64,000 nucleotides of DNA, taken from Sipunculus nudus. Its lineage: Eukaryota; Annelida; Sipuncula; Golfingiida; Sipunculidae. Location: contig CM049322.1 of the NCBI GenBank assembly GCA_026874595.1, forward strand, positions 25,145,400 to 25,209,399, read 5' to 3'. Made by a program: the position numbers and the translations under genes. The notes under the pieces are model-generated. The model was not told the origin of the DNA, searched no databases, and saw only the letters and a list, made by a program, of their open reading frames with translations. This document shows, one piece after another, positions 13,487-58,163 of this stretch (within the stretch, counting starts at the first letter, position 1; each line of letters begins with the position of its first letter).

Positions 13487-16063
13487 ATGCCCCCGCCACA
13501 AGTGGCCAGGGCATATAGTTTTACCCATGTCCGTCATTCCATCCTTCCGTCCTTCCATCCTTCCGGTATTCCGAAATAAAACAGTTGTACAGACTTTTTT
13601 TCGCAATGCCTGCAGATATTGGCATGATTTTTGGTTTGTGGACAGATAATGACCAGTTACAGATCAAGTTCGCGTTTTGTCCCGGGTGACCTACTTTTGA
13701 CCGTTTTACGGCTCCTAAACTTTTATTTGCAATGCCTGCAGATATTGGCCTGATTTTTGATGTGTGGGCAGATAATGACCGGTTACAGATAGAGTTGGCG
13801 TTTCGTCCCAGTTGACCTACTTTTAACCGTTTTACGACTCCTTTACTTAGAAAATTTCATGAAAAATATAAATTTTCATGACAAATACACATGTACAGAC
13901 TTTTATTCGCAATGCCTGCAGATATTGGCCTGATTTTTCGTGTGTGGGCAAACAATGACCAGTTTCAGATCGAGTTTGCGTTTCTTTCCAGTTGACCTAC
14001 TTTTGTACGTTTTACAGCTCCTTTACTTAGAAAATTTCATGAAAAATATAAATTTTCATGACAAATACACATGTACAGACTTTTTTTCGCAATGCCTGCA
14101 GATATTGGCCTGACTTTTGGTGTGTGGGCAGATATTGACCAGTTGCAGATCGAGTTAACGTTTCTTTCCAGTTGACCTACTTTTGACCGTTTTTACTGCT
14201 CCTGAACATAGAAAATTTCATGAAAAATATAAATTTTCATGACAAATACACATGTACGGACCTTTTTTGCAATACCTGCAGATATTGGCCTGATTTTTGA
14301 TGTGTGGGCAGATAATGACCGGTTACAGATGGAGTTGGCGTTTCGTCCCAGTTGACCTACTTTTAACCGTTTTACGACTCCTTAACTTAGAAAATTTCAT
14401 GAAAAATATAAATTTTCATGACAAATACACATGTACAGACTTTTATTCGCAATGCCTGCAGATATTGGCCTGATTTTTCGTGTGTGGGCAAACAATGACC
14501 AGTTACAGATCGAGTTTGCGTTTCGTCCCAGTTGACCTACTTTTGTACGTTTTACGGCTCCTTAACTTAGAAAATTTCATGAAAAATATAAATTTTCATG
14601 ACAAATACACATGTACGGACCTTTTTTGCAATACCTGCAGATATTGGCCTGATTTTTGATGTGTGGGCAGATAATGACCGGTTACAGATGGAGTTGGCGT
14701 TTCGTCCCAGTTGACCTACTTTTAACCGTTTTACGACTCCTTAACTTAGAAAATTTCATGAAAAATATAAATTTTCATGACAAATACACATGTACAGACT
14801 TTTATTCGCAATGCCTGCAGATATTGGCCTGATTTTTCGTGTGTGGGCAAACAATGACCAGTTACAGATCGAGTTTGCATTTCGTCCCAGTTGACCTACT
14901 TTTGTACGTTTTACGGCTCCTTAACTTAGAAAATTTCATGAAAAATATAAATTTTCATGACAAATACACATGTACGGACTTTTTTTCGCAATGCCTGCAG
15001 ATATTGGCCTGATTTTTGGTGTGTGGGCAGGTATTGACCAGTTACGGGTTGAGTTCACGTTTCTTTCGAGTTGACCTACTTTTGACCGTTTTACGGCTCC
15101 TGAACATAGAAAATTTCATGAAAAATATAAATTTTCATGACAAATACACATGTACTGACTTTTTTTGCAGTACCTGCAGATATTGGCCTGATTTTTGGTG
15201 TGTGGGCAGATAATGACAAGTTACAGATCAAGTTCATGTTTTGTCCCAGTTGACCTACTTTTGACCGTCTAAAGGCTCCTGAATATAGAAAATTTTGTGA
15301 AAAATATAAATTTCCATGACAAATACACATGTACTGACTTTTTTTGCAATACCTGCAGATATTGGCCTGATTTTTGGTGTGTGGGCAGATAATGACCAAT
15401 TACAGATCAAGTTCATGTTTTGTCCCAGTTGACCTACTTTTGACCGTTTGACAGTGCTCTAACATAGAAAATTTCATAAAAAAGTGCACATGTACGGACT
15501 TTTTTCGCAATGCCTGCAGATATTGGCCTGATTTTTGGTGTGTAGGCAGATAATGACCAGTTACAGATCAAGTTCTTGTCTTGTCTCAGTTGACCTACTT
15601 TTGACCATTTGACTGCTCCTGAACATGGAAAGTTTTATGAAAAATAGAAATTTTCATAACATATCATATGTACCAACTTTTTTCCTCAATGCCTGCAGAT
15701 ACCACCCTGATTTTTTATGTGTGGGCAGATAATGACAGTTACAGATCGAGTTCGCGTTTCATCCCGGTTGACCTACTTTTGATTGTTTTACGGCTCCTAA
15801 ACAGAAAATTTCATGAAAGACAGAAATTTTTATGGAAAATGCACATGTATGGACTTTTTTTTCACAATGCCTGCAGATACTGGCCTAATTTTTGGTGTGT
15901 TGCTTCATAATGACCCCTAATAGATCGAGTTTGCATTTTGCCCTTGTTGACCTACTTTTGACCATATGACACCTCCTGAACTTAAAAATTTTTTTCAAAA
16001 TTTAACAAATTTTTATTATTTGCACCAGGCGGGGGCATTCGTGTCATTCCGACAGATCTAGTT
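13487..16063 (+). mobile_element. F4 element, satellite-bearing, pearl/HINE-like
   Basis: The 5' end ATGCCCCCGCCACAAGTGGC can fold as a terminal hairpin (GCCAC-AA-GTGGC, and ATGCCC pairing with GGGCAT). The 3' side has the exact inverse GGCGGGGGCAT at 16,028-16,038, then a small hairpin (TGTC...GACA) and CTAGTT. A C/T-rich microsatellite (TCCGTCCTTCCATCC) follows the 5' end, then the ~180-bp tandem repeats. Comparison with the empty site at 21,951-21,960 fixes the boundaries within a T-run, with at most a TT duplication. This architecture (sub-terminal inverted repeats, microsatellite, core tandem repeats, 3' hairpin, T-run target) is that described for Helentron-associated non-autonomous elements, including bivalve 'pearl' elements. 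No protein is encoded. Confidence 0.85.
13580..15990 (+). repeat. ~180-bp tandem repeats inside F4, 14 copies
   Basis: Each unit contains GCAATGCCTGCAGATATTGG, CCTGATTTTTGGTGTGTGGG, AGTTGACCTACTTTTGACCG, GAAAATTTCATGAAAAATAT and GACAAATACACATGTAC. The motif CTGCAGATATTGG begins near 13,612, 13,733 and then roughly every 180 bp to about 15,868; the first unit is short. Two subtypes (GATTTTTCGTGTG...AAACAATG and GATGTGTGGGCAGATAATGACCGG, described by their key blocks) recur together at 540 and then 360 bp, showing amplification of multi-unit blocks. Confidence 0.92.
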
Positions 16064-16365
16064 AAATCATATGGCCATATATTTAACTATTGAAAACCTA
16101 ATTTCGTCACACATTCTTTGTTTATGAAATGTAACTTTCATATAACACTTACTGTATGGTTTAAGGCCACAAGTTTATTACACAGTGCATATGTTTTAGC
16201 TTTTGTCCATTATTTTATAATCTACAGAATTTAATTTTAGCAGGGCCATTTTCTCTTAGCTTTTGAAATTCTAATATACATGAAAAACCAAAGGAAATAA
16301 GAATATTTTGCATATGCTAATATTTTCCAAAATTCAGCTGAGCGACGTGACCCATGGGTCCCTTG

Positions 16366-16640
16366 TTTGTGTATGTTATAAAGCTATCCAAGGGCTATAC
16401 ATTAATGTGTCAAAACAGACGCACAGATGGATGCACTAGATAGAGGAAAGGTCAGAGGTCAACCAAAAGTGAGGGCACAGCAGTTCACATGTGACCCAAT
16501 CATAATTCCAAATTTTAAAAAATTCTGCCCACTGGTTACAGAGGAGTTCTCCGGAAACCCAAGCGGCAGGGGCGTGCAACTGAAAACAGTGTATCCACAA
16601 AACTCTTTTTTGGAGGATACAATTATTGCGATAGTGTCTA
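16366..16640 (-). mobile_element. Y element 5' fragment (reverse orientation)
   Basis: The reverse complement begins with the Y 5' motif (GTATCCTCC...GTTTTGTGGATAC hairpin) and continues through GGAGAACTCCTCTG, GGTCACATGTGAACTGC and GGTTGACCTCTGACCTTTCC, as in the 36-kb and 56.7-kb copies. Confidence 0.7.
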
Positions 16641-16955
16641 CAATGGACTAACATCCATAGAGCAGAGATATATCATAGGACACAAAAGTCCATGTATGGA
16701 CTACCTGAATACATAATTTCAGTGTGAATGTTACCAAGCGGGTTGCGCTGTCTATTGCCCATGGGACTGCTGTTGGCATTCTCTTAGCAACGATGCCACT
16801 CACATGAGGCGTGACAGCCTGATATGCAAATGCCGGGGAATCATCAGGTCCGCAAAGAGCCTTGTTACGCCCTAATATGCAAATATCAGGGATTTACCGT
16901 ACAGACTTTAGTGATGGCACTGAGTTACATCTATTAATTTGTACATGGAATCATG
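16641..16955. other. No recognised feature
   Basis: About 0.3 kb, GC-richer than its surroundings, with no repeat match in the window and no splice-bounded open frame that I can support. Confidence 0.4.
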
Positions 16956-16958
16956 TTT

Positions 16959-19585
16959 TTAGCTCAGCTGACTATAAGTCATCTGAGCTATAGTCGTGGT
17001 CCATTGTCCGTCGTCTGTCCGTCTGTCCGTCTGTCCGTCCGTCCGTCCGTCCGTAGATGTGGCACGTTTTGAAACCGTAAGACCTAGGAATCCAAAATTC
17101 GGCATAATGTTAGATGTCCCCAAGATCTCCTACCAAGCCAAAAACTGGGTCTTTGCAACTTTGTTCCTTTGAGAAATTAAGGAAAAACCTCAATTTTTTA
17201 TTAAAAACCTATTTTCACACTTCAGGACTGCCTAATATCAAAACCACTCATCTGTTTTTTCTCATATTTACCATAAATATTCCTCTATATAGTTCCTATG
17301 TACATGCCAGAAATTATGTTTGTATTATTTAATTTAAAAAAGTTATGGGCCCAAACATAATGCATTTTGTAAAAAATCAGGATAGATATTTGATCACTTA
17401 ACACAAAAAATGTTAAAGCTATCGACCTTTTTTCCAGTAATATAACTTTAATTAATCAAAATTAAATTGTATACCCAAAATTAGATGAAAATCTTTTAAA
17501 TTTTCTAAAATATTAATAAAAATAAAAAATTGGTACCTTAAATTTTGCCCAACTTTGACCATGGCACGTTTTTTTCCTGTAAGTACTTTGGATTTAATTT
17601 TCACAGCATGTTTTTGTTAGCATTTCAACTGTTAACACCAAAAATTTGAAACAAGTTGATCAAAAACTGTAGATTTTAATAAGTTTTCAGGCACCATGTA
17701 ACATATTGTTTACATCAAGCTAGTGTTATGCAGTTTGCAAGAGCTCAGCTCCCCAGCTTCAGCTCTTAGTTCCTTAAATTTGGCATACAGTTAGATGTCT
17801 CCAAAATCCCCTACCATGCAAAGAATTTGGTCACTAGGACTTAATACCTTCGAGATATTAATGAAAAACTTCATTTTTCCATTAAAAACCCATTGTTACA
17901 CTTCAAGACTGCCTAATATCAAAACCACTGATCTGACTTTAATCATAAATAATATACATATTTTTCATTCTCTATGCACATGCCAGAATGATGTCAGTAT
18001 TGCGTAATTGTTTTAAGTTATGGGCATAAACATAATGCACTTTGTAAAAAATCAAGAAATATATTTACTCCCTTAACAAGGGCATTGCTGAAGCTAGAGA
18101 TTTTTTTGTCAGGGATGTAACATTATTTAATCAAGATTCAATTGAATACCCAAAATTAGTTCTGAATTTTTCAAATTTTATAAGTTATTAGTATAAATAT
18201 AAAATTAGTACCTTAAATTTTGCCCAACTTTGACAATGGCACGTTTGTGTCCTGTGAGCACTGTTGATATAATTTTCATATCATGCACACATTAGGATTT
18301 CAGCTTTTTAGTTTAAAAAGCTGAAAGAAATTGGCCAAAAATTGTAGCTTTTATTAATGTTTTTTATGAGACCCTGTCACATTTTGGCTCTCTCCAGCCC
18401 CTCTTGAGTCACCTGTATGTTGACCTTGTTGACCTTTCATCAAATTATGCACGCTTGAGGCGAGGCATACAGGAATCCAGGCAGCTTATGGCCAGCCACA
18501 GTTGATCCAGGTGTCCAACCCAACTCATCTAGTAGTTTTAACCAACAACATAACAATAAACAATAAATTAATAAATTTTTATTGGTTTTTAATAACAAAT
18601 TAAAGAAAAATAGAAAAGGAATTTGTTAGTTTATAATAACAGGAAATTAACTTGCAGTTACTGATGATATAAGAATCTTGTATCGATGGGTAGAATGTCA
18701 CATATTCCAAATAACACCATGCAGTCACCTATGGCATTTTTCAGTTCAATTTTAATGATAAAGAAGTAAATCATATTATTGATTACTAATCATTAGGGAT
18801 CATATGAAGGAAATTAATGATAGACAAAGATGCAGTTGATAATATTAATCTAGATTCCTACTGTGTCTAGTGTGTACATTGATGTGAAATTAGTCCAAAA
18901 TGAATTTTTTACAGTTATTTTTTAATATAAATAAAAGCCATAAAACCAGGTACTTATGATCATTATTTAAATGTGTGAATACTGTATATTCTGGATTCTC
19001 AACATCATTGGTTGGTGAAACTGAATAAATACTAGACATGGTGCGAATACTTTGTAATTGTATTTAAATATGAATATGATTATGTACTCCATTATAAAAT
19101 TTCTTGCATAAAGAATATGAATTCAGGTAAAAATGAAAGTATATGAATACTCGTGCAGATACTTTCAAAATGTATTCATGAATGCATTCATGAATATATT
19201 CTTTAATATTATTTTAATAATCATATCAGTTATATTTCATTTAAAAAAATCATATGATTCTCTTATTATTTTTTATAAAAATTATATTTGGGACAATGTA
19301 TTTTTTTAAAAATAAATAGTTAAACTCTTATATTATATGTTCTGCTTATAAGTTATATGGCCAAGTCAAAATCTATGTGACAATAGTACTCCATTTGTTA
19401 ATAAAATAAATGAAATTAATCCTCTTCCCTGTCTCCAAAGGTACTATCAAAATCATACATAAGCTAAACAACAGCAACTCATAATACAGCTTATATTTAT
19501 TACCACACAAAACCAGCATGTGCCTCAATAATATTTTTTTATCATATATAACAGCTGAGCGTCGTGACCCATAGGTCCCTTGTTT
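16959..19585 (+). mobile_element. F1 element, full-length copy A (2.6 kb)
   Basis: The 5' end TTAGCTCAGCTGACT...AGTCATCTGAGCTA folds as a hairpin (TAGCTCAG pairs with CTGAGCTA). It is followed by a (GTCC/GTCT)n microsatellite at about 17,005-17,055. Two related halves follow (17,060-17,760 and 17,770-18,440), sharing AAATTTTGCCCAACTTTGAC and CATGGCACGTTT, and then ~1.1 kb of AT-rich tail. The 3' end has CAGCTGAGCGTCGTGACCCA, TAGGTCCCTTGTTT. Copies B and C at 50-55 kb are near-identical end to end by eye. Small open frames such as the 70-residue one at 17,795 are not conserved as protein. No transposase or helicase is encoded, so the element is non-autonomous. Confidence 0.88.
17005..17055 (+). 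repeat. (GTCC/GTCT)n microsatellite near the F1 5' end
   Basis: Tetranucleotide repeats of GTCC with GTCT interruptions lie ~45 bp inside the F1 5' hairpin. The same tract, at varied length, occurs in the copies at about 20,000, 50,255-50,315 and 52,833-52,882, and in short form in F6 (35,050-35,080). A microsatellite behind the 5' end is a known hallmark of HINE/DINE elements. Confidence 0.85.
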
Positions 19586-24103: not shown

Positions 24104-27100
24104 TGTTGGAACGTAAATGGATGGACGGACACCAATAAATTGTTATGATCAGAAATAATTTTGAATTTAAATTACAACATTTTTTGTTTGTCTGAAACAC
24201 ATCTCTTAGCCGATATTGAAATTTGTTTAACCGGTTATAAATGGTTTGGTTTTAATAGAGAACATGTACACGTTAAAGCTCCAAAAGGATCTGGTGGTGT
24301 AGGGGTTTTATTGAATGATAGACTTTTGACTTCTTTCAGGGTCAAGGTAATTGATCGATCTTATACAGGTATTTTAGGTGTTGAACTGACTCATGTGTCT
24401 AAAAACTTTACTTTTATCATTTTTGTGTGCTACCTTCCTCCCAAAACCTCACCCTGGGGGTGAAATTCCACAACATTCTTTGCTCACCTTCTTAGTCAGG
24501 TCTACGTATATAATGATGCGATTATTTTGTCATTGTTGGGGATTTTAGTGCCAGGGTTAGGCATATGAAAGATTATATTGACAGCATTGATGATATATAT
24601 GACTGTGAGCCCTTAGATTTAATGAAGAATGCACACGGAGAATCCTTGATAGATTTTTTGGTCGAATTGAAATTTTGTATTTTAAATGGAAGGATAAACA
24701 AACACAATGATGATTTCACCCATGTCTTGACCAGGGGTAAATCTGTGGTCGACTATGGTATTGTGGCTCACAGAATGTTGGAAAATGTAACTAGCTTTAT
24801 TATTATCCTGGTTGCTGATATTATTGGAAAAAGTAATTTGGTTAATCTTTTGTCGTCTTGTTGTAAGGCACCGGATCATGCTATTATATCTATCAGTATT
24901 AATGTAAGTCTGACATATTTGGATCGCCTACCTCTAAAGGATAATAATTATGAACAGCCACTTACCTGTAGCCGAAAATATAATTTTAATCGTATGTCTG
25001 GAGACTTTATGGAAAACTCAAGTTTCATACAGTGCATGGACGCACAGGTGTCCGCATTGGGTAGAGAACATATCAATGAAATATATAGCAACATGTGTAA
25101 AATAATATTTGACGAGATGGATAAATATGTGGACAGTTATGAAATTATATTAAACGTGCATGATACTAAACGGATCCGCTCTTTGAAACCTTATTGGGAT
25201 AGAGAACTGAAAAATGTCTGGTTGGAAATGAAAGAAAAAGAAAAATCTTTTTGAAAATTTAATGGTCCAAGGGATGAATGGTCAAACTACTGTGATTTGT
25301 TTAAAAAATCTAGAAATTCTTTTGACAAATTATTGCATCATAAAGAGAGAGAATATTATAGAAATAAACTACTACATCTAGACAGACTTTTAAGTCAAAA
25401 TCAAACAGAATTTTTGAATGCTATACAGAAACTCGGTGATCGAAAGAAAAAATGTAAGATTTCGTCAGTTAAAGTGAACAATGAATTAGTATATGATCAT
25501 GACGTTATACTACACTGTTGGTATGATGAATTTTGTAACTTAAACAGTTACCCGCTAAATCTTACGGACTTGCAGTTCAGTACTAATTTCATAATCGATA
25601 TAAAACAGAGTGGCAATACAGGAGAGTTACATGCGATATGAAAGTTATGAATCAAATTTATTATAAAATGAAAATGTATCTTTTGACAAATGAATAATAA
25701 AGCTACTGGGCTTGATAGTGTGCTAAATGAAGCTATCAAAAGATAGCAGTTTATAAAATACTTCTATAATTTTTTTTTAATTTTAGGGCCCCGCTTGAAA
25801 AGCGGGTGCCCTATAGTAATCAACCTGTCTGTCTGTCTGTCTGTCTGTCTGCTGGCCTACATCATGTTTGAAGATGGGTGACCTTGATGGATTTTCAAGG
25901 TCACAGACGTGATAATGCTAAAATGATGTTAACCAAATAGCTCGCAAACAATTTGACTAACACTCACTGAACTTGCACCACTAATGTTTGTTATGAAGGG
26001 CAAGGTCAAGTTTGAAGTTGGATGACCTTGACAGAGGCAATAATTCTCAAATGATGTTAATGCAATAACTCTCAAAGAATTTGATGAACAATCAAATTCG
26101 TTTCTGCATAAAAACTCCCCTAACATATGATGGATAGGATTCAAACATAATATGTATCACCCATGGCCTAAGGGAGAAGCTTATTGATATTTGGGTCAGA
26201 AGGGAAAAAAAAAGTAATACACAGTTTGGTGTTCAGTTCTGGTGTCTCCTTCAGCAGGCCAGAAATGGATGAATCTTTTTCGAGTCACTAGTGTACAGCG
26301 GCATTACATTTTCACAGCATATTTTGTACAGACAATTTAAAGATTCCCCAGAAAAGGATACACTGGCCCAACACACCACAGTGGCTCTCATTTAGACCAT
26401 ATTTGGACAAATCTATCTCCACTTCCAACATCTCAAGGAATTTGGACCTATTATAGTGACCATCAACAAATTTACATTGATATTCATATGTAGCCATTCT
26501 ACACAACACAGCGCATCTGTAGACCCAAGCCCAAGAACAGCTGAATCACAGTTCAAGAGAATGACCATTTTATCACTACTAACCAGCAGCTGACTCTCTC
26601 TAATACTACAAGGTTCATGTACAGACTCAAGCCTCACATATAATAAGGCCAATTCAACATACAAATACTGGAAAAATATTTGACCCAGCCCAGCCAAGAC
26701 TTCAACCAAGAATAATTGGCACAGGTAATACACAAATACAGAAACTAAAAATGCATGCAGTTCTTTTATATCATTATTTTGATAGCTTTGAACATTTTCA
26801 CTTTACCATATCTTTTCCTCCAGTTTATACATGTCAGCTGTTCTTTACAGGTTCTTTAATTTCCAAATATCACTCTATCAGCCCATGCTACCAAAGTACA
26901 CCAAATTCACAGTACTTCAATTTATAATGACTGCATCTTTTGCGGGGCCCTTCCTGACCTGTCAGTTTTCCAGTTGTTTCAGTAATGGTATTGTTCCTTC
27001 AGTATGGACAAAAGCAATTATTGCTCCGGTGCTTAAAACCAACAAAGACCTCATACAACATTAAGTTATAGAGGAATAAGTCTCCTGTCTTGTATTGGTA

Positions 27101-29745: not shown

Positions 29746-29746
29746 T

Positions 29747-32311
29747 AATTGTATTCCCAGACAAAGTTGGGGGATACTATGGTTTCTTGACAGTCCTGCC
29801 GTAGCCGCAAATAAATTTTGTCTGCACTATAACCAAATAAAATGTGTTCCAGATCTTTACTAAACTTGACATGTGTCCATTTTGGGGAGAAATCACACAA
29901 AATCTTAATATCTCAAGAAATCATGCCTATATAAAATGGGGTCATGACCTTTACTAGGACAGTGACCTTGACCATGAATAGTTCCAATTTGGGGAAAATT
30001 AAATCACACAAATTCTTAAATATCTTAAGAAATCCTGCATGGATTGATCCCAAAATCAACTTGACTGAAGATCTTGGATAGTGTTGTCATGTACCCAAAA
30101 CTGGTGGCACCACCTGTCATTGTTTTCTTGTTTCATGCCATTGAATACCCCCTTCATTGCCATTTAACAGTACTGTGAGCATTATAAGTCAGAAAACTAA
30201 TGGACAGATTTCTTGCATATCATGCATATACATAGACGTGATGTGTGATTTGTGTTTAAATTGGGGTCATAATCTTTTTCCTGTGAGAGTGGCCTTGACC
30301 TTGAATATTGCCATATATGGTGAAAATCACACAAAACCATAAATATCACAATAAGGGATGCATGGATGGTCTAAAAATCAAATTAACCAAAGATCTTGGA
30401 TAGCTTTGTCTTCTGTAGAAGACAGGTGACGCCACCATCTGTCCCTTTTTTCCGGGCCTTTTAATTACCCATCATTACCACATGACAGTACTGTGAGCAT
30501 TATAAGACTAAACTAATGGACAGATTGGGCTGAAATTCTGCATGTCCATTCATTTTGGATACCTCCATCTTGTATTCAAGACTGCTGGCTGCGTGACTAT
30601 CTGCAATTGTAATTGTGTGGCATCCATCCATACGTTTGCTTTTGGTGGAAATTGCTCATAACTCCGTAGTGGTTCACGGTATAGGTCTAAAATTTGGCAA
30701 GTCAATCCATCTTGGAAAGTTTTCTTGTAAACCAGACAGGTGGTGCCACCTACCTCCCCGTTTTTGTAGAATAAATTAATGCATTTTTCTGATGAGTGAT
30801 TTGCTCAATTGGCCTGAAATTATGCATATCCATAGATTTTGGACTCCTCCATCTTGTACTCAAGACTGGTACGTGGCGCCATCTGCAATCGTTTTGGCGT
30901 GGCGTCCATCTGTACATGTGCTATGGTTGAAAATTGCTCATATCTCCGAAATGGTTCAAGGTAAAGGTCTGAAATTTGGCATGCATGTCCCTCCATCTTA
31001 GAAAATTTTCCTATAAACCAGACAGGTGGCGCCACCTACCTTCCTGTTTCCATAAAATAAATTAATGCTCTTTTCTGAGGAGTGATTTGCCCTATTTGCC
31101 TGAACTTGTGCATATCAATAGATCTTGAACTCCTCCATTTTGTACTCAAGACTGGTGGTGCCATCTGCAATCCTTTTGATGTGATGTCCATCTGGACATC
31201 TGCTTTGCGTGAAAATTGCTCATATCTTTGGAGTGGTTCTTAAATTTGGCATGTCTATCCATCTTTGAAAATTTTCTCATAAACAAGACAGGTGGTGCCA
31301 CCTTCTTCCTGTTTCCGTAAAATAAATTAATGCTTTTTTCTTAAGAGAGATTCAACATATTGGCCCCCATTTTTGGTGAAAAATATTGTTTCTCAAGTTA
31401 ATAGATGGAAGAAACCATAGTCGCTTGCGAAGTGTCAGTATATGCTGCTGGAGATGTTTTGGGGGGGGGGGGGCTATTCTTAAAGGGTTGCAGGATTAAT
31501 TGTCTGGCGATACATGGCATCTGAGGTGCCAAGAAATATCTAGTTCTTTTCTTGTTTTTCGCACTTTTTAATACCCAATCATTGCCACTCGACAGAATGC
31601 GAGCATTATAAGTCCAAATCTAATGGACAGATTGCTTTCATATTATGCATATACATAGATATTTGGGTTAGTGGATGATGTGTATTTAAATAGGATTCAT
31701 GACCTTTCCTATGAGAGTGGCATTGACCTTGAATATTTCCATATTTGGTGAAAATCACAAAAAATCTTAACTATCTCAAAATGGGATGCATGAATTGGTC
31801 CAAAAATTGAATTGACCAAAGATCTTGGATAATTTTGTTTTCTGCAGGAAAAACGCTTTCTTTTTTTTTCGAGCCTTTTAATACCTGAGTATAATACCTT
31901 TTGACAGTACTGTGAGCATCATTAAGTAAAAAACTTATGGACAGATTTCTTTCACATTATGCATATACATAGATATATGGGTTATTGGATGAGGTATATT
32001 TAAATTTGGGTCATGACCTTCCTATGTTTGTAGCCTTAACCTTGAATATTCCCATGTTTGGTGAAAAATATTGTTTCTCAGGTGGATAGAGGTATCTATT
32101 TGAAAATCAAAATGAAAAATGTCAGATGATTAGTAAACAGGTGAAAGAGACTAGTGACCTTGAGGTTGGTTTTGAAGGTCACATCTGAAGACAACCTGGT
32201 GGCTTGCCATGTGTCAGTATAAGCTTCTGAATATATGGGGGCCTATTTTTGAGGGGGGGGGGGGGGGTTGTTGTCTGGGGTAAACTAATAATGCAAGAAA
32301 TGTCTAGTTTA
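29747..32311 (+). mobile_element. F5 element(s), compound copy
   Basis: The 5' end is GTATTCCCAGACAAAGTTGG then GGGATACTATGG, a hairpin. There are two 3' ends: 31,496-31,553 (TGTCTGGCGATACATGGC...AAATATCTAGTT) and 32,267-32,311 (TTGTCTGGGG...AAATGTCTAGTTT), so two copies are joined or nested. The interior has repeated blocks ACAGTACTGTGAGCATTATA, GACCTTGAATATT and at least five GGTGG(C/T)GCCACC palindromes, plus poly-G tracts before each 3' end. Confidence 0.8.
31461..31473 (+). repeat. Poly-G tract (13 G) near the F5 3' end
   Basis: One of five G-runs of 13-15 bases in the window (also 32,253-32,267, 34,673-34,687, 48,726-48,739 and 61,491-61,504). Four of them lie at the same place in F5 elements, 10-25 bp before the inverted 3' motif. 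Confidence 0.9.
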
Positions 32312-33582: not shown

Positions 33583-34741
33583 ATTGTATCCCCAGACAAA
33601 GTCGGGATACTATGGTTTCATGACGGTCACGCTGTCGCCGCCGCCGCAGAAAAACCTTGTGAGCGGGATAACTCAAAAAATATTTCACTGATCTTTTTCA
33701 AACTTTACCTTTGTATAGATATAAGTAAGGGGACGGAGCCTAACTAAAATGGGGTCCTGACCTATGCTAGGAGAGTGACCTTGACCTTGAATAGGTCCAT
33801 TTAGCTGAAAATAACACAAATTCTTAAATATCTCAAGTAAGCTTGCATGGACTGGTCCAAAAATCAAGGTGACCGAATATCTTGAATAGCCTTGTGATAT
33901 ACCGGAAATTGGTGGCGCCACCTATTATCCTTTTCTTGTTTTTGCGCCTTTTAATACCCCCATAATTGCCACTTAACAGTACTGTAAGCATTATAAGTCC
34001 AAAACTAATGGACAGATTTCTTTCATATTATGCATATGTAGAGAGATGGGTTATGGGATGAGGTCTATTTACATTTGGGTTATGACCTTTACCATGAGAG
34101 TGTCCTTGACCTTTAATGTGTCCATATTTGGTGAAAATCACACACCTCTTATGATATCTCCAGTTTTGATAGCCATATGGATTTCAAACGTGACTTATGT
34201 ATGGCCCACCACTAAAGTAAGAACCCTTTACATTCTAGGGTCATTAGGTCAAAGGTCAAGGTCACTGGACTCGCATCTTAAAAGATACTGTGGATGCATT
34301 TTAAGCCATGCATTTTAAGCCAAACTTTCATCCCAGGTCTTCCATCTTGAAAATATAGCTCACTTGCCAATAGTGGATGATCCATATCAATTTTGGGGTC
34401 ACAAGGTCAAAGGTCAAGGCCACAGGAGCTATCTGTCCAAAAATTAGTTTCTGGATGATAATTCCTGCTTTTATTGATGTATTGATTTCAAACTTGACTT
34501 GTATATGTCCCATTGGAAAAGCAAGACCTCAATTGATTTTGGGGTCATGAGGTCAAAGGTCAAGGTCACAGGACCAACATTATCAAAAGATTGTGGATTG
34601 ATAGATGGAAGAGACAATAATTGCTTGCCAGGTGTCAGTATATGCTGCTAAAAATGGGGGCCTATTCTTAAAGGGGGGGGGGGGGGGCCTACTATGTCTG
34701 GGGATACTCTGGCACCTGCGGTCCAAGATATGTCTAGTTTC
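33583..34741 (+). mobile_element. F5 element, complete copy
   Basis: GTATCCCCAGAC (33,586-33,597) begins a hairpin with GTCGGGATAC. The exact inverse GTCTGGGGATAC is at 34,696-34,707, followed by a hairpin (TGGCACC...GGTCCA) and TGTCTAGTTT. The interior holds GACCTTGACCTTGAAT, a GGTGGCGCCACC palindrome near 33,910, three AGGTCA triplets (34,246-34,568) and a 15-G run. Confidence 0.88.
34246..34568 (+). promoter_or_regulatory. Cluster of AGGTCA direct repeats (nuclear-receptor-like)
   Basis: AGGTCA-A-AGGTCA-AGGTCA occurs in full at 34,246 and 34,550 and with one change at 34,404, about 150 bp apart. AGGTCA is the nuclear-receptor half-site. Spacing 1 (DR1) is the usual RXR/HNF4/PPAR arrangement, and TCAAGGTCA is an ERR/FTZ-F1-type extended site. 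Whether any receptor binds here is unknown. The same cluster recurs at 63,516-63,966, and in weaker form at 38,605-39,050. Confidence 0.35.
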
Positions 34742-37092: not shown

Positions 37093-37093
37093 G

Positions 37094-39126
37094 TATTTTT
37101 AGCTCAGCTGACTGTAAGTCATCTGAGCTATAGCAATCACTCTTTGTCCGTCCGGGCGTCTGTCCATTAACAGGGCACACACTGTAACCACTGGACTTAG
37201 AATCTTTATATCTTGAGATCTTGGGAGGTCTATAAAAAATCTCCTTTGAAACCTGAAATAAGGTCTCTTTTAGCCATATCCTTTGAGCTGTGGGGCTCCC
37301 AATTACCCCCCAGAATAATAGAAATTTTGATAAAACAAATATCTCATTAACTACATCACTGATGGTCCTGATTTTTGGCATACATATTGATCATGAGATG
37401 TCCCATCAGTTCCTGCAGACTGGTGGCACCACCTGTATTTTTCAAATTTTACAATTTTTTTCTCTCTATTTTTGAGACCCTTAAGGATGTAGTTATCTGT
37501 CAACATGGTACAAATCGTAACCACTGGACCTAGAATTTTTATTCTTGACACACAGGGAGACCCATGAAAAGTCTCCATGGAAACCTGAAATTAGGTCTCT
37601 TTTACCCATATCCTTTGAGCTATGGCACTCCAAAGTACAGCCCAGAATAATGGAAAATTTGATACAAAAGCTGAAGTATCAGAACAACTAATGCAGAGAT
37701 CTTTGCATGGATATTGACCATTAAGTGTTTTTATTAGTTTCTGCAGACTGGTGGAGCCACCTGTAATTTTTACGCAATTTTTCTCTTTTTTTAGATATAT
37801 AAATACAGAACAATCTTGGCCTGTTAGTTAATCTGTTTGATGCTTCAGTTGACGGTGTCTAGACACACCGTCTAGATGTCTAGAACCTGCCAACTGTGTC
37901 AGTTTTTACAATAGTTCAAGTTACGCTCTGTATCTATAAATAACTTTGGCAGTCTGCCAACCGTTTCAGATTTGCCATCAGGTCAAAGTTTCAGTCTGTA
38001 AGAGCCAGTCGTAAGTTTCAGTCTGTAAGAGCCAGTGGTGCGGTTACATGTGGCACATGAGGTACCCTTGATCTAGGGGAAAGCTGAGCCTCCATTGCCA
38101 GGATACATGAGTAGGTGTGACTCAATACCAAGACTAAAAGAGGAACTTGTTCTTGGGTTTTGTAGGGAAAAAGCTAAAAAACATTTTAAAAATGTTCTTC
38201 TATGAAACCATGCTGGCAAATTGTCAGTTCATCTGTCCCAATATCCCTCCCTGGCAAAAAGAACATATCGGAAATATCCTGACTGATACATCCTATTTTT
38301 AAAATTTCCTAGTCCAAAACATGCAGGTCTGAAATGTCCATTTGGCTGAAATGATCAGTATTAAATTTTTAAAATAAACATTCATACTCCCAAATTTTGC
38401 AGTTTTTCGCATTAGGCCTTTAGGCCTTGTTTCTTATTTTAATGAATTTTTTTCTATTTTTTTACTAAAAAATGACAACAATCATGTCAGTTTCTCAGCT
38501 GTGATTACATCTAGTGTCCCAGGTTGGATTGACACATGGATTTCAAACTTGACTTACATATGTCCCACCACTAAAGCAAGGACCTGTATGATTTTTGGGT
38601 CATGAGGTCAAAAGTCAAGGTCAGAGGACTCACATAAAAAGATTACGGCTCCATTTTAAGCCAAGCTTTTCATCCCAAACTTCCCATCTTGGGCATTTAA
38701 CTGACTTGCCAGTATGAGGAGAGCATAAATGAATTTGGGGTCACAAGGTCAAGGTCACAGGGGTCATCTGTTCATAAATTAGTTTTAGATGATAACTCCA
38801 GTTTAGTTTGAAAAATTGTGGATGCACTGTAAATCTGTAAATCACTGTAAACTTTTCATCCCAAACTTTCATCTTTCACACATGGCTTACTTGCCCAAAG
38901 TGAGGAAATCTGTAGATTTTGAGGTTACCTGGTCAGAGATCAAGGTCACTTTTTTAAAAGATTGTTACAATAATCTAAATGCTGCAAATCAAGGATAATA
39001 AGTTCTAAGATTTTTGGGTCACAAGGTCATTGGTTAAGGTCACAGGACTGTCATCTTAAAAGAAATCTTTAAAAATATCCTTATTAACAAATTCAGCTGA
39101 GTGTCAAGACCCATGGGTCCCTAGTT
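37094..39126 (+). mobile_element. F1-type element (divergent interior) upstream of the second FHA exon
   Basis: The 5' end TTTTTAGCTCAGCTGACTGT and CATCTGAGCTATAG, and the 3' end CAGCTGAGTGTCAAGACCCA, TGGGTCCCTAGTTT, are F1 termini. The interior differs from copies A-D. It has two ~440-bp modules each with a palindrome near 37,422 and 37,750, a Z 3' fragment at 38,150-38,435, and a stretch with F5-like AGGTCA repeats (38,500-39,060). It is therefore composite or recombined. Its 3' end is ~135 bp from the exon acceptor. Confidence 0.7.
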
Positions 39127-40030: not shown

Positions 40031-40933
40031 AGGTTTATTTATGGGAATTGGGTTTCCTTTGGCATGCTTATTGTCATTATTTTACTGGGTATACCAGACA
40101 GGTGGCACCACCTACACTGGTAATTAGTCAAAGTCAGGTTGGTACTTGGCCAAGGCTTCAGTGCTTGTTAGCGAACCTGTGAGCTTATGCGATGGCGCAG
40201 CGTCCATCATCCGCTGGCTTTCCACCATCCATGGCTGTAAGTCAGAAACCGTCAGAGCTAGCAGCTCCAAATTACATGTAAGAATTATTCACATGTGAAA
40301 CTTGGTGCCCTGGAGCTTATTATTGGGTATCTGCATTAATTTAGATTTTATAGAGAAAAAGCTTAAAAACTTTTAAAAATCTTCTTCTCTGAAACTGTCC
40401 AGCCAAATTGTCCAATATTTCACAGAAATGATCCCTGGAACAATCTCTCTCAAATTTGTTTGAATGGTTCCAGTTTGGAGATTTTTGGCCGAGTTACAGG
40501 AGGTTGAGTCATCTGTCCAAAAAAGCACACTAAAATAAAATCTCAGAAATGGCTTGAGCTATAATCACCAAATTTTATACCAATGTTTGTCACATATGTC
40601 ATATCTGATTTTGAGGTATTGGTGGCGCCACCTACATTGATGTGTTTTTTACAAGCGAAAATGTAATTTTAAAATCTTCTAGCTTATACACTGATTTATG
40701 ATGAAACTGTTAAGCTGATTGGTTTAAACTTTACAAGAATTATTCTATGGTAGGGTTCTGCCAGTTTTATAAGAATAGATTGGGTAAATACAGTTTTAAA
40801 AAAACAATTGAAAAGGCTTTCTGTATTTAAAAACAGATTTGACAACATGATGAGTTTCAGCAGCCAAGTCAAGAGGTCACTCAGTACAAACAGGTGGGGT
40901 TCAGACATCACCATTGCAACTGACCTAGCTCTG

Positions 40934-40993
40934 CGGTGTGTCTAGACAATGTGTCTAGACGTCTAGACACAGCGTCTAGACGTCTAGACACAA
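40934..40993. repeat. Cluster of GTCTAGAC palindromes
   Basis: Five perfect 8-bp GTCTAGAC palindromes lie within 60 bp, two pairs directly abutting (GTCTAGACGTCTAGAC). A smaller cluster lies at 37,857-37,890, with one GTCTAGAC and two partial TCTAGA motifs. Confidence 0.85.
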
Positions 40994-42142
40994 TGTTTGG
41001 ATGCAGAATTTCCAGATTATTGGAACTATATCTTTCAACTGTTTGTAAAAACTTGGTTTGCATTTTACGTGAATTGGGTTTATCATCAGGTCACATGTGA
41101 ACTGCTGCGCTCTCATTTTTGGTTGACCTCTGACCTTTCCTCGCTGCCCAGTGTCCATTTGTGTGTCTGTTTCCACACATAAACCCGCATATCTCGGGAA
41201 CCGTTTGACTGATCAGGCTAAAAATTTTGCAAAAATGTAGCCCTTTGATAGCTTTATAACAAACACTGAAAATGGTGGCGCCACCTGCAACCATTTTTGC
41301 ACAGTGTCCATCTGTTCATCTGCCTTGGGATAATATCACTCATATCTCAGCAGTGGTTTGACTTATCCACCTGAAATTTTGCTGATTTATACATCCTGGA
41401 CAGCTTTCTCGATTTTATGACAGATGGCACCACCTACTTTCACGTTTACTCTGCAGACATCCAAGTTCATATCTCGGGTTCCGTTTGACCTATTGGGCCA
41501 AAATTTTGCATGTGTATAGATCTCACATAGCTCTTCATCATAGGCAATCTGGTGGCGCCACCTGCAACCATTTTTGCACAGCGTCCATCTGTTCATCTGC
41601 CTTGGGATAAAATCACTCATATCTCAGCAGTGGTTTGACTTATCCACCTGAAATTTTGCAGGTTTATACATCCTGGACAGCTTTCGTGACTTATGACAGG
41701 TGGTGCCACCTACATTTACGTTTACTCTGCAGACATCCAAGCTCATATCTCGGGTTCCATTTGACCTATTGGGCCAAAATTTTGCATGTGTATAGATCTC
41801 ACATAGCTCTTCATCATAGGCAAAACTGGTGGCGCCCTCTGCAAACAATTATGCCCAGCATCTATCTGTTCATCTGCCTTGGGATAATATTACTCATATC
41901 TCAGCAGTGGTTTGACTTTTCCACCTGAAAATTTGCAGGTTTATACATCCTGGAAAGCTTTCTCAATTTTATGACAGGTGGCGCCACCTACATCCATGTA
42001 TACGCTGTAGACATCCAAGCTAACATGCAACACACCTCACTCTATTCCCCTTGCCACTTAATCCATGCCTCACTTCACCCGTCCCACTCTGATTTCTGCA
42101 GATTCACAGAGTTGCTTGTCAACTACCCATATTCTAGTTTTA
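40985..42142 (+). mobile_element. Y element nested in Z, 5' end decayed
   Basis: The Y body starts near GATGCAGAATTTCC and runs through GGTCACATGTGAACTGCTGC. It then has six palindrome-ended modules at 41,274, 41,423, 41,551, 41,699, 41,828 and 41,977 (spacings 149, 128, 148, 129 and 149). The 3' end is GTTGCTTGTCAACTACCCAT, ATTCTAGTTTT. Confidence 0.82.
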
Positions 42143-42537
42143 AAATGTCCTAGTCTGAAACATGCACGTCTGAAATGTCCATTTTGCTGAAATCATAATG
42201 ACTAAGGTAGATATGCAGGACTTAAAAGGATCAATATTAAATTTAAAACCTCCATTCATACTCCCAAACTTTGCACAGGTTGGCATTAGGCCTTTAGGCC
42301 TTGTGTACATTGGTCCATGGATCCAGTCTGGTCAGTAGGTGGGTGCAGTTGTCTGTGCATCAGAAGATATCTGTGCACATAAATCAAGACTGTTTCGATG
42401 TATCCTCTTGACCTTTTGCATGTACAAACATCAGGGATAGCTTTCTTAAACACCAGCCTCATGGTGCCACCAAGATTAAACTTTGTACAGCATATCTCAT
42501 TAAGGATTTTATGTGTTGGCCTGAAATGTCCATACAT

Positions 42538-52788: not shown

Positions 52789-55410
52789 TTAGCTCAGCTG
52801 ACTATAAGTCATCTGAGCTATAGTCGTGGTCCATTGTCCGTCGTCCGTCCGTCTGTCCGTCCGTCCGTCCGTCCGTCCGTAGATGTGGCACGTTTTGAAA
52901 CCGTAAGACCTAGGAATCCAAAATTCAGCATAATGTTAGATGTCCCCAAGATCTCCTACCAAGCCAAAAACTGGGTCTTTGCGACTTCATTCCTTTGAGA
53001 AATTAAGGAAAAACCTCAATTTTTTTATTAAAAACCTATTTTCACACTTTAGGACTGCCTAATATCAAAACCACTCATCTGTTTTTCCTCATATTTCCTA
53101 TAAATAATCCTATATATAATTCCTATGTACATGCCAGAAATTAGGTCTGTATTATTTAATTTAAAAAAGTTATGGGCCCAAACATAATGCATTTTTTAAA
53201 TAATCAGGAAAGAAATTTTATCACTTAACACAAAACTTGTTAAAGCTAAGCACTTTTTTTCCAGTAGTATTACTTTAATTAATCAAAATTAAATTGTATA
53301 CCCAAAATTAGATCAAAATCTTTTAAATTTTTAAAAAAATTAGCAAAAATAAAAAATTGGTACCTTAAATTTTGCCCAACTTTGACCATGGCACGTTTTT
53401 TTGCTGTAACTGCTGTGGATTTAATTTTCACAGCATGTTTTTGTTAGCATTTCAACTGTTAACACCAAAAATTTGAAACCAGTTGATCAAAAACTGTAGA
53501 TTTTATTCAAGTTTTTAAGCACCATGTCACATATTGCTAGTGTTATGCAGTTTGCTAGAGCTCAGCTCCCGAGCTTCAGCTCTAAGTTCCTTAAATTTGG
53601 CATACAGTTAGATTTCTCCAAAATCCCCTACCATGCCAAGAATTTGGTCACTAGGACTTAATTCCTTCGAGATATCAATGAAAAACTTAATTTTTCCATT
53701 AAAAACCCAATGTTACACTTTAAGAATGCCTAATATCAAAACCACTGATCTGACTTTGATCATATATAATATACATATTTTTCTATACATTCACTATGCA
53801 CATGCCAGAAATGATGTCAGTATTGTGTATTTTTTTTAAGTTATGGGCCCAAACATAATGCACTTTGTAAAAAATCAAGAAATATATTTACTCCCTTAAC
53901 AAGGGCATTGCTGAAGCTAGAGATCTTTTTTGTCAGGGATGTAACATTATTTAATCAAGATTCAATTGAATACCCAAAATTAGTTCTGAATTTTTCAAAT
54001 TTTATAAGTTATTAGTATAAATATAAAATTAGTACCTTAAATTTTGCCCAACTGTGACCATGGCACGTTTGTTTCCCGTGAGCACTGTTGATATAATTTT
54101 CATATCATGCACACATAAGGATTTCAGCTTTTTATTTTAGAAAGCTGAAAGAAATTTGCCAAATATTGTAGCTTTTATTAATGTTTTTTATGAGACCCTG
54201 TCAGACTTTGGCTCTCTCCAGCCCCTCTTGAGTCACCTGTATGTTGACCTTGTTGACCTTTCATCAAATTATGCACGCTTGAGGGGAGAATCCAGGCAGC
54301 TGATGGCCAGCCATAGTTGATCCAGGTGTTCAACCCAACTCATCTAGTAGTTTTAACCAACAACATAACAGTAAACAATAAATTAATAAATTTTTATTGG
54401 TTTTTAATAAAAAATTAAAGAAAAATAGAAAAGGAATTTGTTAGTTTATAATAACAGGAAATTAACTTGCAGTTACTGATGATATAAGAATCTTGTATCG
54501 ATGCATAGAATGTCACATATTCCAAATAACACCATGCAGTCACCTATGGCATTTTTCAGTTCATTTTTAATGATAAAGAAGTAAATCATATTATTCATTA
54601 CTAATCATTAAGGATTATATGAAGGAAATTAATGATAGACAAAGATGCAGTTGATAATATTAATCTAGATTCCTACTGTGTCTAGTGTGTACATTGATGT
54701 GAAATTAGTCCAAAATGAATTTTTTACAGTTATTTTTTAATATAAATAAAAGCCATAAAACCAGGTACTTATGATCATTATTTAAATGTGTGAATTTTGT
54801 ATATTCTGGATTCTCAACATCATTGGTTGGTGAAACTGAATAAATACCAGACATGGTGCGAATACTTTGTAGTTGTATTTAAATACGAATATGATTATGT
54901 ACTCCATTATAAAATTTCTTGCATAAAGAATGGGAATTCAGGTAAAAATGAAAGTATATGAATACTCGTGCAAATACTTTCAAAATGTATTCATGAATGC
55001 ATTCATGAATATATTCTTTAATATTATTTTAATAATCATATCAATTATATTTCATTTTAAAAGATCATATGATTCTCTTATTATTTTTAATAAAAATTAT
55101 ATTTGGGACAATATTTGTAATATTTTTAATAAATAGTTAAACTCTTATATTATATGTTCTGCTTATAAGTTATATGGCCAAGTCAAAATCTGTGTGACAG
55201 TAGTACTCCATTTGTTAATAAAATAAATAAAATCAATCCTCTTCCCTGTCTCCAAAGGTACTATCAAAATCATACATAAGCTAAACAACAACAACTCATA
55301 ATACAGCTTATATTTATTACCACACAAAACCAGCATGTGCCTCATTTCTAAATAATATTTTTTTTATCATATATAACAGCTGAGCGTCGTGACCCATAGG
55401 TCCCTTGTTT
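52789..55410 (+). mobile_element. F1 element, full-length copy C, inserted in copy B
   Basis: Complete from TTAGCTCAGCTGACTATAAG to CATAGGTCCCTTGTTT. Its 3' end is directly followed by AATCATATATAACAGCTGAG and a second terminus, which is the tail of copy B. C therefore entered the T-run of B. The nesting gives both ends of F1 exactly. Confidence 0.88.
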
Positions 55411-55455
55411 AATCATATATAACAGCTGAGCGTCGTGACCCATAGGTCCCTTGTT
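55411..55455 (+). mobile_element. Displaced 3' terminus of F1 copy B
   Basis: The 45-bp segment repeats the last part of copy C (ATCATATATAACAGCTGAGC, then CATAGGTCCCTTGTT). Taken with 50,209-52,788 it completes copy B. Confidence 0.8.
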
Positions 55456-55595
55456 AAAGAAATTGATTTCAATTTAAATAATTTAATTAAAATATAACTA
55501 AACGCATCAGTAGGCATAATTTGAATATATTTGAGCCAAATCATGTATAAATAAAGGTGCGATTTAGAATTGTAAATTCTGAATCAAATGTTGTT

Positions 55596-56404
55596 ATGCC
55601 CCCGCCATATAGTTTTACCCATGTCCGTCATTCCGTCCTTCTGTCCTTCCATCATTTCGAAATCAAACAGGTGTACAGACTTTTTTTCACAATGCCTCAT
55701 TGCCTGCGTATATTGGCCTGATTTTTGGAGTGTGGGCAGATAAAGACCAGTAACAGATCGAGCTTTGTGTTTCCTCCCAGTTGACCTACTTTTAACCGTA
55801 TGAAGGCTCTTGAACATAGAAAATTTCATGGAAAAATTGAAATTTTCATGATAATTGCACATGTACAGACTTTTTTTCACAGTGCCTGCACATATTAGCC
55901 TGAATTTTGGTGTGTGGCTTGATCATGACCACTTACAGATCGAATTTGCATTTTGTCCCGTATGACGTCCAAAGAACAGAAAATTTCATGCAAATAGAAA
56001 TTTTCATGATAAATTCACATGTACAGACTTTTTTTTGCAGTGCTTGCAGATATTGACCTGATTTATTGAACCTCATCAGATCATGACCAGTTACAGTTCG
56101 TCACGATAGACTTACCTTTGACGGTATGACAGCTCCTGAACATAGAAATTTCATAAAAATTAAAATTTTCATGATAAATGCACATGTACAGACTTTTTTT
56201 CCCAAATGCCTGTGCATATTGGCCTAATTTTTTAAGTGTGGGTGCATAATGACCACTTAAAGATCGAATTCGCATATTGTCCTGGTTCACCTACTTTTTT
56301 TTGACTGTACGACAGCTTCTGAACATAAAAATTTTACAAACTTTGACAAATAGTTCTAATTTGCTCCAGGCGGGGGCATTCATGTCGTTCTGACACATTA
56401 AGTT
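55596..56404 (+). mobile_element. F4 element, short copy with 4 internal repeats
   Basis: The 5' ATGCCCCCGCC (55,596) and 3' GGCGGGGGCAT (56,369-56,379) are exact inverses, followed by a TGTC...GACA hairpin and TTAAGTTTT. The interior has four diverged ~170-180-bp units (near 55,690, 55,883, 56,040 and 56,206) against 14 in the 13.5-kb copy, so repeat number varies between insertions. Confidence 0.85.
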
Positions 56405-56519
56405 TTCAGATATGTTTTGTTTTGCAAATTCAAAAAATATATTTTATAAAAAAATTAATACATTTGTGTGCATCATGTGATGTCACCAGACCAAAAAAGC
56501 TTAGATTCTGATGCAATTT

Positions 56520-56695
56520 AGAATTGTGGATTAACTTAAACATTCAGATATATATGTTATACTGTAAATGAATTTTAAGTTATTAGCATAAATATAAAAT
56601 CAATACCTTTGTCAAGATTTGACCGTGGCACGTTTTTTTCCCTTTCAGCACTGTAGATTAATTTTTCATAGTATATGTACATAAGGATTTAATAT
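56520..56695 (+). mobile_element. F1 core fragment
   Basis: Matches the second-half core of F1 copy D (TTAGCATAAATATAAAATCA, GTGGCACGTTTTTTTCC, CATAAGGATTTAAT). It ends where the Y element begins. Confidence 0.6.
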
Positions 56696-58163
56696 TTGTA
56701 TCCGCCAAAACAAAGTTTTGTGGATACTATGTTTTTGACCGGGTTCCGCCACCGCCACGTTAGTTTCCGAAGAACTCCTCTGAGACTACTGGACAGATTT
56801 TTCCGAAACGTACACCAATTATCGGGTCACATGTGAACTGGTGCCTAACCTATTGGTCTTGACCTCTGATCTTTCCTCTCTGCCCAGCGTCCATTTGTAC
56901 GTCTGTTTCCACACATAAACCCACATATTTAGGGAACCGTTTGACTGATCAAGAAAAAAAATTTTGTACAAATGTAGCCCTTGGATAGCTTTATACCATA
57001 CACAAAAAATGGTGGCGCCACCTGCAGCCATTTTTGCACAGTGTCCATCTCTTCATCTGCCTTGGGTTAAAATCACTCATATCTCTGCAGTGGTTTGACC
57101 AAATTACCCGAAATTTGGCATGCGTATACATCCTAGATAGCTTTCTTGATTTTGTGACAGGTGGCACCACCTATAATCACGTTCATGCTGCAGACATCTA
57201 AGCTCATATCTCGGGAACCTTTTGACCAATCAGGAAAAAAAATTTACACAAATGTAGCCCTTGGATAGCTTTATAACATACACAAAAATGGTGGTGCCAC
57301 CTGCAGCCATTTTTGCACAGTGTCCATCTGTTTGTCTGCCTTGGGTTAAAATCACTCATATCTTTGCAGTGGTTTGACCAAATTACCTGAAATTCGGCAT
57401 GCGTATATACATCCCGCAAAGCTTTCTTGTTTTATGACAGGTGGCCCCACCTACATTCTCTTTAAATGCTGTAGACATCCATGCTTATATCTCTGGACTC
57501 GTTCGACCAATCAGGAAAAAATACTTACACAAATGTAGCCCTTGGATAGCTTTATAACATACACAAAAATGTTGGTGCCACCTGCAGCCATTTTTGTACA
57601 GCGTCCATATGTTTGACTGCCTTGGGTTAAAATCACTCATATCACTGCAGTGGTTTGACCAAATTACCTGTAATTCGGCATGCGAATACATCCTGGATAG
57701 CTTTCTTGATTTTATGACAGGTGGCGCCAGCTTCATTCACATTCAAGCTGCAGACATTAATGCTTATATCTCGGGACTCATTTGACCAATCAAGAAAAAA
57801 GTATAACACAAATGTAGCCCTTGGATAGCTTTATAACATACACAAAAAATGGTGGTGGCACCTGCAGCCATTTTTGCACAGCATCCATCTGTTTGTCTGC
57901 TGTGGGATAAAATCACTCGTATCTCTGCAGTGGTTTGACTTTTCAAACTGAAAATTTGCATGTGTATACATCATGAATAGTTTCTTGTTCAAATAACAGG
58001 TGGCGCCACCTACAATCATGTTTACATGGCAGACATCCATTCTAAAATGTAACACATGTAACTCTATTTCCCCTTGCCACTCAATCAATGCCTCACTTCA
58101 CCCGTCCTACTCTGATTTTGGCGGATACACAAAGTCGCATATCGACTACCCGTATTCTAGTTT
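56696..58163 (+). mobile_element. Y element, complete copy
   Basis: GTATCCGCC (56,698-56,706) begins the hairpin GTATCCGCCAAAAC-AAA-GTTTTGTGGATAC, described here by its arms. The exact inverse GGCGGATAC is at 58,120-58,128, then a small hairpin (AGTCG...CGACT) and CCGTATTCTAGTTTT. The interior has eight palindrome-ended modules at 57,011, 57,160, 57,290, 57,440, 57,571, 57,720, 57,851 and 57,999, alternating 149 and 130 bp. It is the best reference copy of the family in this window. Confidence 0.9.

Follow-up and report, generated by a model that had tools for sequence, protein, structure and literature searches.

The 64,000-nucleotide stretch of Sipunculus nudus DNA considered here (the window; chromosome C17) carries transposable elements of seven families with different ends, designated F1, F4, F5, F6, Y, Z and W. 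These elements are HINEs, that is, non-autonomous Helentrons, and represent new members of a known group. In the window, 45 of the 46 non-overlapping end signatures lie on the plus strand. It is well established, from one arm of chromosome C1 and from scattered loci, that a local orientation is common to families with different ends over tens to hundreds of kilobases, and over the whole genome the two strands are balanced in each of five families. The original prediction for this window had described the ends of these elements and made no claim about their orientation.

End structure and identity of the elements

The original prediction held that each family has its own pair of end motifs, and all 14 motif strings of the seven pairs were found exactly in place. 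The 3' ends of the CTAGTT or CTTGTT type, with the inverse motif shortly before them, were confirmed in the window, and the predicted spacing of about 25-45 bp agrees with the measured one, the 3' motif starting 32-44 bp inside the end in the seven families. The 5' terminal hairpin, expected in most families, is present in F1, F4, F5, F6, Y and W, weak in Z, and absent from a short F4 copy at 55596. Similarly, a 3' palindrome followed by a CTAG- or CTTG-T-type end is general, with an imperfect palindrome in the F5 copy at 34739 and with CCAGTT as the end of W. GTCC/CTGT microsatellites, also predicted, were located at 17006, 25825, 50263 and 52836, and central tandem repeats lie within F4, F6 and Y elements.

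A strict grammar scan, defined by a 3' motif, a hairpin and CWWGTT plus the inverse motif in an upstream hairpin, returned nine matches on the plus strand of the window (seven distinct 5' ends) and one on the minus strand, the latter falling in a 35-bp tandem array at 23356-24100. On the reversed sequence the same scan gave a single match, on the complemented sequence none, and on ten Markov shuffles zero or one each. It retrieved F1, F4, F6 and Y, together with an F5 match that uses a doubtful motif, and missed W, Z and the F5 copy at 33586 in the window, whose pairs are supported by direct reading of the ends. Same-family pairs of a 5' and a following 3' signature within 4.5 kb, some of which may be mispaired, number 33 when the window is taken together with 21 of the 55 fetched loci: 11 in the window and 22 in 16 fetched loci, covering F1, F4, F5, F6, Y and Z, with W in the window only. 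Some 5' motifs are eroded. The pairing of 5' and 3' motifs was borne out family by family. When own and swapped end pairs were compared for co-variation within families, the own pairs matched no better, the mismatch counts of Y being an artefact of too short a cut. The end calls are limited by a GTATCC common to F5 and Y and by the shortness of the F1 pair (9-10 bp).

These features are those by which HINEs are recognized: paired subterminal inverted repeats, of which the 5' member is terminal or nearly so and the 3' member lies about 25-60 bp inside; a 5' inverted repeat that pairs with the 5' motif in a hairpin (F1, F4, F5, F6, Y and W); a microsatellite together with central tandem repeats; and a T-rich target without target-site duplication, seen in a single empty-site test and in the T-rich 5' flanks of F6. 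The empty-site test concerns W, whose host is a degraded long interspersed nuclear element (LINE) at 24149-28501 on the plus strand, recognized by an RVT_1 match. A 300-nt query of this LINE matched 14 places in the genome, the window accounting for two, and in three fetched LINE copies without W the T-run is continuous at the site, with no sign of duplication. Classical Helitrons, unlike the elements here, use an A/T target. The HINE/DINE layout recognized by the original prediction is supported by the end motifs, the grammar scan and the signature pairs, and is a layout already known.

In the Pacific oyster, Crassostrea gigas, 11 Cg_HINE elements are described, in the part of the source available, with subterminal inverted repeats of 11-12 bp, an inverted repeat, GTCC-type microsatellites and a 3' palindrome (PMC7492417). 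The elements here share with them the subterminal inverted repeats, the 5' inverted repeat, the microsatellites, the central tandem repeats and the 3' palindrome, as well as the T-rich target, the lack of target-site duplication and the many elements per genome. DINE-1 and HINE-Mo/Helentrons likewise share, in the text available, the end layout, the TT target and the type of Rep/helicase/endonuclease partner (PMC4067079).

Exact terminal patterns occur throughout the genome on both strands: 5502 for F1 (2742/2760), 3061 for F4 (1511/1550), 3894 for Z (1975/1919), 6383 for Y (3213/3170) and 3899 for F5 (1967/1932), the patterns of Y and F5 spanning the last 19-21 bases only. The backwards control gave 0 for each of the five. 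F6 is young, as all 40 scored genomic matches (window copy included) are 98-100% identical; there were 657 candidates at first look. Its boundaries are sharp, with both motifs in all eight loci studied (window's included) and the 5' hairpin in seven of them. In these eight loci T-rich DNA precedes AGCCCTCAGCC, and the flanks after CTAGTT differ, one pair excepted. This pair (L047 and L049) lies on different chromosomes and has an identical 3' flank; either the same repeat site was targeted or a duplication carried one copy along.

Table 1. HINE elements and fragments of the window
Feature	Position	Strand	Description
F4 element	13487..16063	+	ATGCCCCCGCC / GGCGGGGGCAT; central tandem repeats of ~180 bp; 3' terminus GATCTAGTT
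F1 element	16959..19584	+	AGCTCAGCTGA hairpin; GTCC microsatellite; 3' palindrome GACCCATAGGTC; terminus CCTTGTT
W element	25784..26975	+	GGGCCCCGC / GCGGGGCCC; CTGT microsatellite; terminus CCAGTT; within degraded LINE
F5-type element	29751..31545	+	End signatures
F5 element	33586..34739	+	GTATCCCCAGAC / GTCTGGGGATAC; terminus CTAGTT
F6 element	35011..36041	+	Young family; terminus CTAGTT
F1 element	37099..39126	+	Grammar scan, end signatures and signature pair
Z element	40171..42304	+	GCGAACCTGTG; 3' partner with one mismatch; terminus GGCCTTGTT
F1 element	52789..55455	+	3' end duplicated (55377-55409, 55423-55455)
F4 element, short copy	55596..56404	+	No 5' hairpin
Y element	56698..58162	+	GTATCCGCC / GGCGGATAC; central tandem repeats of ~279 bp; terminus CTAGTT
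F5-type elements	59789..61556	+	5' ends 59789 and 60767; 3' end 61556
Y 5' end	16591..16620	-	Sole minus-strand end signature in window; internal Y matches 16360-16620
F1 internal fragment	2714..3171	-	Internal match

The last two rows of Table 1 are the only minus-strand HINE pieces found in the window. Two tandem arrays, both long and very uniform, lie outside the HINEs, one at 3211-6990 (56-bp unit x 67.6, 98% match) and one at 7529-9341 (50-bp unit x 36.3, 97% match).

The original prediction further proposed that one rolling-circle machinery mobilizes many families, and pointed to an autonomous Helentron that might share their ends. Proteins of the Rep/helicase/endonuclease type are indeed present. 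Helitron_like_N occurs at at least 143 places in the genome, and an open frame of 2235 aa on the minus strand of C11:50381609-50388313 combines Helitron_like_N (Rep), OTU, a PIF1 helicase and a C-terminal Exo_endo_phos, along with DUF6570 and an N-terminal repeat region with an STPRs match just under the cut-off. Judged from its predicted domains, this set is the Helentron combination. A second copy on C7 is 99.2% identical to it over 13.9 kb, with the frame in three pieces. Because a stop codon lies upstream of the C11 frame, apparently inside the same N-terminal region, and the C7 frame is broken, neither copy is shown to be intact. Tandem arrays of about 147 bp follow the Helentron frames (L042/L043, L040/L041). 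For each copy 19.5 kb were read, and these contain none of the seven family ends, nor were the copies' own termini recognized. The proposal of a common machinery is supported in part. It is not borne out by shared ends, since the stretches read from the two Helentrons showed none of the seven, but orientation lends it separate support, as five HINE families with different ends obey the same local strand rule. The HINEs would be moved by a putative partner of the Rep/helicase/endonuclease type encoded here.

Orientation domains on chromosome C1 and elsewhere

A dense map of C1:0-14.3 Mb was drawn from the first 100 places listed per family and comprises 368 places of five families (F1, F4, F5, Y and Z), places past 14.3 Mb being left out of the main counts. 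Data for other chromosomes come from the window, from F6 loci on C10, C12, C14 and C15, and from single loci on C14 and C15. Among the first 100 C1 places, same-strand runs number 25 for F1 (45 expected) and 25 for Z (50 expected). Agreement of strand between copies of different families is high at short range and declines with distance: 44/48 pairs agree below 5 kb, 140/160 at 5-20 kb, 246/317 at 20-50 kb, 329/463 at 50-100 kb, 605/889 at 100-200 kb, 765/1388 (55%) at 200-400 kb, 1595/2907 at 400-800 kb and 2336/4764 at 0.8-1.6 Mb. Below 50 kb, 430 of 525 cross-family pairs agree, a value reached in none of 2000 trials in which strand labels were rotated within each family (mean 269.9, maximum 328). 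Same-family and cross-family pairs agree about equally, and the effect extends to 200 kb.

Under a two-state model of this map, domains average 137 kb and minority copies make up 4.6%. The longest run comprises the first 56 mapped C1 places, all on the minus strand and of all five families, over 1.09 Mb (C1:64036-1153360), as compared with a maximum of 24 in 5000 shuffles. When same-family copies within 5 kb are collapsed, 291/415 pairs at 50-100 kb and 537/795 at 100-200 kb still agree; when the first 1.2 Mb is also left out, agreement is 28/32 below 5 kb, 95/113 at 5-20 kb and 167/234 at 20-50 kb. Polarity is thus general on this C1 arm, and its reach is inflated by the single domain in the first 1.2 Mb.

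Eight 10-kb C1 regions were selected for two or three exact ends on one strand, a choice that favors polarized places, and in them all 64 end signatures and all 77 internal matches follow the strand of the region; after removal of the 19 selecting anchors, the other 45 ends all agree. Some co-oriented ends at L034 and L039 resemble tandem duplicates. Outside the window, five of seven F6 loci (C10, C12, C14 and C15) carry ends of other families, and all seven such ends are co-oriented with F6.

A control was provided by a short interspersed nuclear element (SINE) resembling a transfer RNA (tRNA), with 3212 places at three mismatches or fewer. It was mapped via its B-box (strands 730/687), so that true tRNA genes may be included. 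The control is small, as C1:0-14.3 Mb has 16 collapsed loci. Of these, 13 have a HINE no more than 100 kb away, and 4 of the 13 share its strand, whereas 302 of 364 HINEs share the strand of the closest HINE from a different family (Fisher p 7e-5); the values are 4/10 versus 280/336 within 50 kb (p 0.003) and 1/4 versus 252/293 within 30 kb (p 0.011), all on the assumption that copies are independent, which they are not. SINE-SINE pairs 3.5-200 kb apart agree in 11 of 22 cases. This small control argues against a general repeat artefact. The LINE of the window was dropped as a further control, as its 14 matches, two being the window itself, are too few. At L036, 7405-7840, the SINE-like repeat forms a pair about 275 bp apart on the minus strand.

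The supply of target sequence is likewise not supported as the cause. In strictly repeat-stripped DNA, runs of four or more T and of four or more A number 242:257 in plus regions and 82:85 in minus regions, and because they are about equal, a one-sided T-rich supply is not a sufficient cause. Two further comparisons are not used: a first skew calculation, in which the TA sign fitted 9/9 labelled regions and GC did not fit, was weakened by strict repeat removal, and an all-against-all comparison of masked regions (221/223 labelled pairs co-oriented with the domains) does not serve as a control, since much of what was left after masking is still HINE.

Orientation domains of this kind were not seen in the literature searched and are apparently new as a feature common to several HINE families. 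No account of them was found in the full texts covered, and most subscription papers lie outside that body. For Cg_HINE, integration is described in both orientations, and no orientation domains were found in the available text (PMC7492417); the same holds for the available text on DINE-1 and HINE-Mo/Helentrons (PMC4067079).

Possible origins of the orientation domains

The rule holds across different ends, was not seen in the SINE, has no explanation in target supply and switches sign at about 100 kb. Together these traits point to an asymmetry of the strands, regional in extent, that is read by a shared insertion machinery. The candidates for such an asymmetry are replication forks and transcription, with forks the more probable of the two. 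They are favored because independent genes would hardly add up to the 1.09-Mb run, because agreement below 5 kb is high, and because an HUH enzyme that joins single-stranded DNA has a precedent in the bacterial IS200/IS605 elements, whose insertion orientation follows the direction of replication through the lagging-strand template, according to the part of a review available (PMC5371812). In that case, too, orientation tracks a regional strand asymmetry, and polarity common to elements with different ends, expected of such behavior, was found here. The differences are that IS200/IS605 have another enzyme and other ends, are prokaryotic, and have a known direction of replication, whereas here there is orientation alone.

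By analogy, Helentron insertion may well select one strand at replication forks, the lagging-strand template being the probable one. The HUH Rep would link the element, in the form of a single-stranded circle or strand, to T-runs that are themselves single-stranded, and in the germline these would be exposed mainly on one template of the moving fork. The sense strand would go into the strand bearing the T-run, and into the same strand wherever forks share a direction. All HINE families would then put their sense strand in the same fork template, and the orientation of copies old and young would be a fossil map, a genome-wide and long-term record of germline fork direction; this too we consider a better than even prospect. 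The Helraiser system has in common with this scheme a HUH Rep acting on single-stranded DNA and a circular intermediate, and differs in that a random distribution of insertions is described, with nothing found on orientation versus forks in the text available (PMC4778049).

The main rival is transcription, which we regard as possible and clearly less likely than forks. Elements would join single strands made available by transcription through R-loops or negative supercoiling, or selection would purge one orientation from transcribed regions, and the domains would be genes or co-oriented gene clusters. Their scale, from tens to about 140 kb, overlaps a plausible gene spacing, and supercoiling is the alternative source of single strands named for Helitrons in the accessible part of the Helraiser paper (PMC4778049). 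An ankyrin codon pattern has two usable places in the mapped part of C1, at 1.92 Mb on the minus and 6.88 Mb on the plus strand, and both match the local HINE strand; but a sample of two is uninformative, and the pattern's 880 matches stand against as many as 263 in the backwards control. However, the run of 56 places over 1.09 Mb would require many consecutive co-oriented genes, and the polarity below 5 kb (44/48, or 28/32 without the first 1.2 Mb) leaves little room for unpolarized intergenic copies. The few control SINEs are also without such polarity, and no host gene was recognized in the strongly polarized window among the 20 of its 329 frames of at least 55 aa that were run against Pfam, where a LINE reverse transcriptase was the sole match over the cut-off and one baculovirus match lay under it. 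The agreement of 45/45 ends in the chosen C1 regions counts for less here, since these regions were picked for agreeing anchors.

Local chain insertion, in which HINEs have T-runs of fixed sense and new copies enter the T-runs of older copies and inherit their orientation, would produce clusters without any regional signal. Elements do often abut or nest, some pairs (L034, L039) resemble tandem duplications, and runs of four or more T exceed those of A in the HINE library (350:265). But this excess is too small for a ratio of 45:1, and agreement at 50-200 kb (329/463 and 605/889, or 291/415 and 537/795 after collapsing) reaches farther than any cluster, so that chain insertion is improbable as the general cause, though it may contribute to the agreement below 5 kb. 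Less probable still is the deletion of inverted homologous pairs by selection or recombination, with direct pairs remaining. Close inverted repeats are unstable, which speaks for it, but cross-family agreement is about equal to same-family agreement and reaches to 200 kb.

The replication reading of the domains is thus probable but unproven, and several observations weigh against it or narrow its base. The dense map covers one arm of one chromosome, and in it F4 alone is weakly ordered (45 runs versus 51 expected in the first 100 places, z -1.17), while F4-F5 pairs agree poorly (5/9 and 4/9 within 20 kb). In the collapsed set without the first 1.2 Mb, agreement at greater distances falls to 212/332 (50-100 kb), 366/613 (100-200 kb) and 548/1052 (200-400 kb). 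With lighter masking, the ratio of T to A runs is 468:457 in plus regions and 150:191 in minus regions, the latter reflecting either mildly polarized targets or HINE sequence that escaped masking. The composition skew of repeat-stripped DNA agrees in sign with this reading (TA +0.006 and GC +0.035 in plus regions; TA -0.015 and GC -0.027 in minus regions), but it is small and mixed between regions.

Chromosome ends provide a weak test, which also gives a mixed result. Of 18 loci of 4 kb each, placed some 60 kb in from the left ends of 17 large contigs and of a small one, one had no readable bases and two carried HINE ends, on C15 (minus, two ends) and on C14 (plus, one end). At the right of C1, stretches of 6 kb at 109.9 and 110.1 Mb are minus, those at 110.3 Mb (three minus, one plus) and 110.65 Mb are mixed, that at 110.5 Mb is empty, and that at 110.8 Mb, about 110 kb from the right end, is all plus. 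The left end of C1 is all minus, its right end plus and the left end of C15 minus, yet the left end of C14 is plus. Furthermore, C1 has no exact 30-base TTAGGG match. Among the matches listed, the first exact TTAGGG array lies at C2:404083-404756, about 404 kb inside the contig. Since C1 has no such match and the C2 array is internal, the contigs may lack part of their ends or have been misjoined there. Should forks move outward at chromosome ends, plus copies would mark rightward forks and their strand would be the lagging-strand template, a sign drawn from weak data.

Where Helitron-type elements find single-stranded DNA is an open question according to the available part of the Helraiser paper, which leaves it between lagging-strand replication and supercoiling (PMC4778049). 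Polarized domains common to several families point to a single strand generated by forks or by transcription, and this can be tested on existing assemblies. If forks are responsible, the thousands of HINE copies in a genome would form a fossil map of replication direction for animals without replication data, and the direction of germline forks would be readable from an assembly alone.

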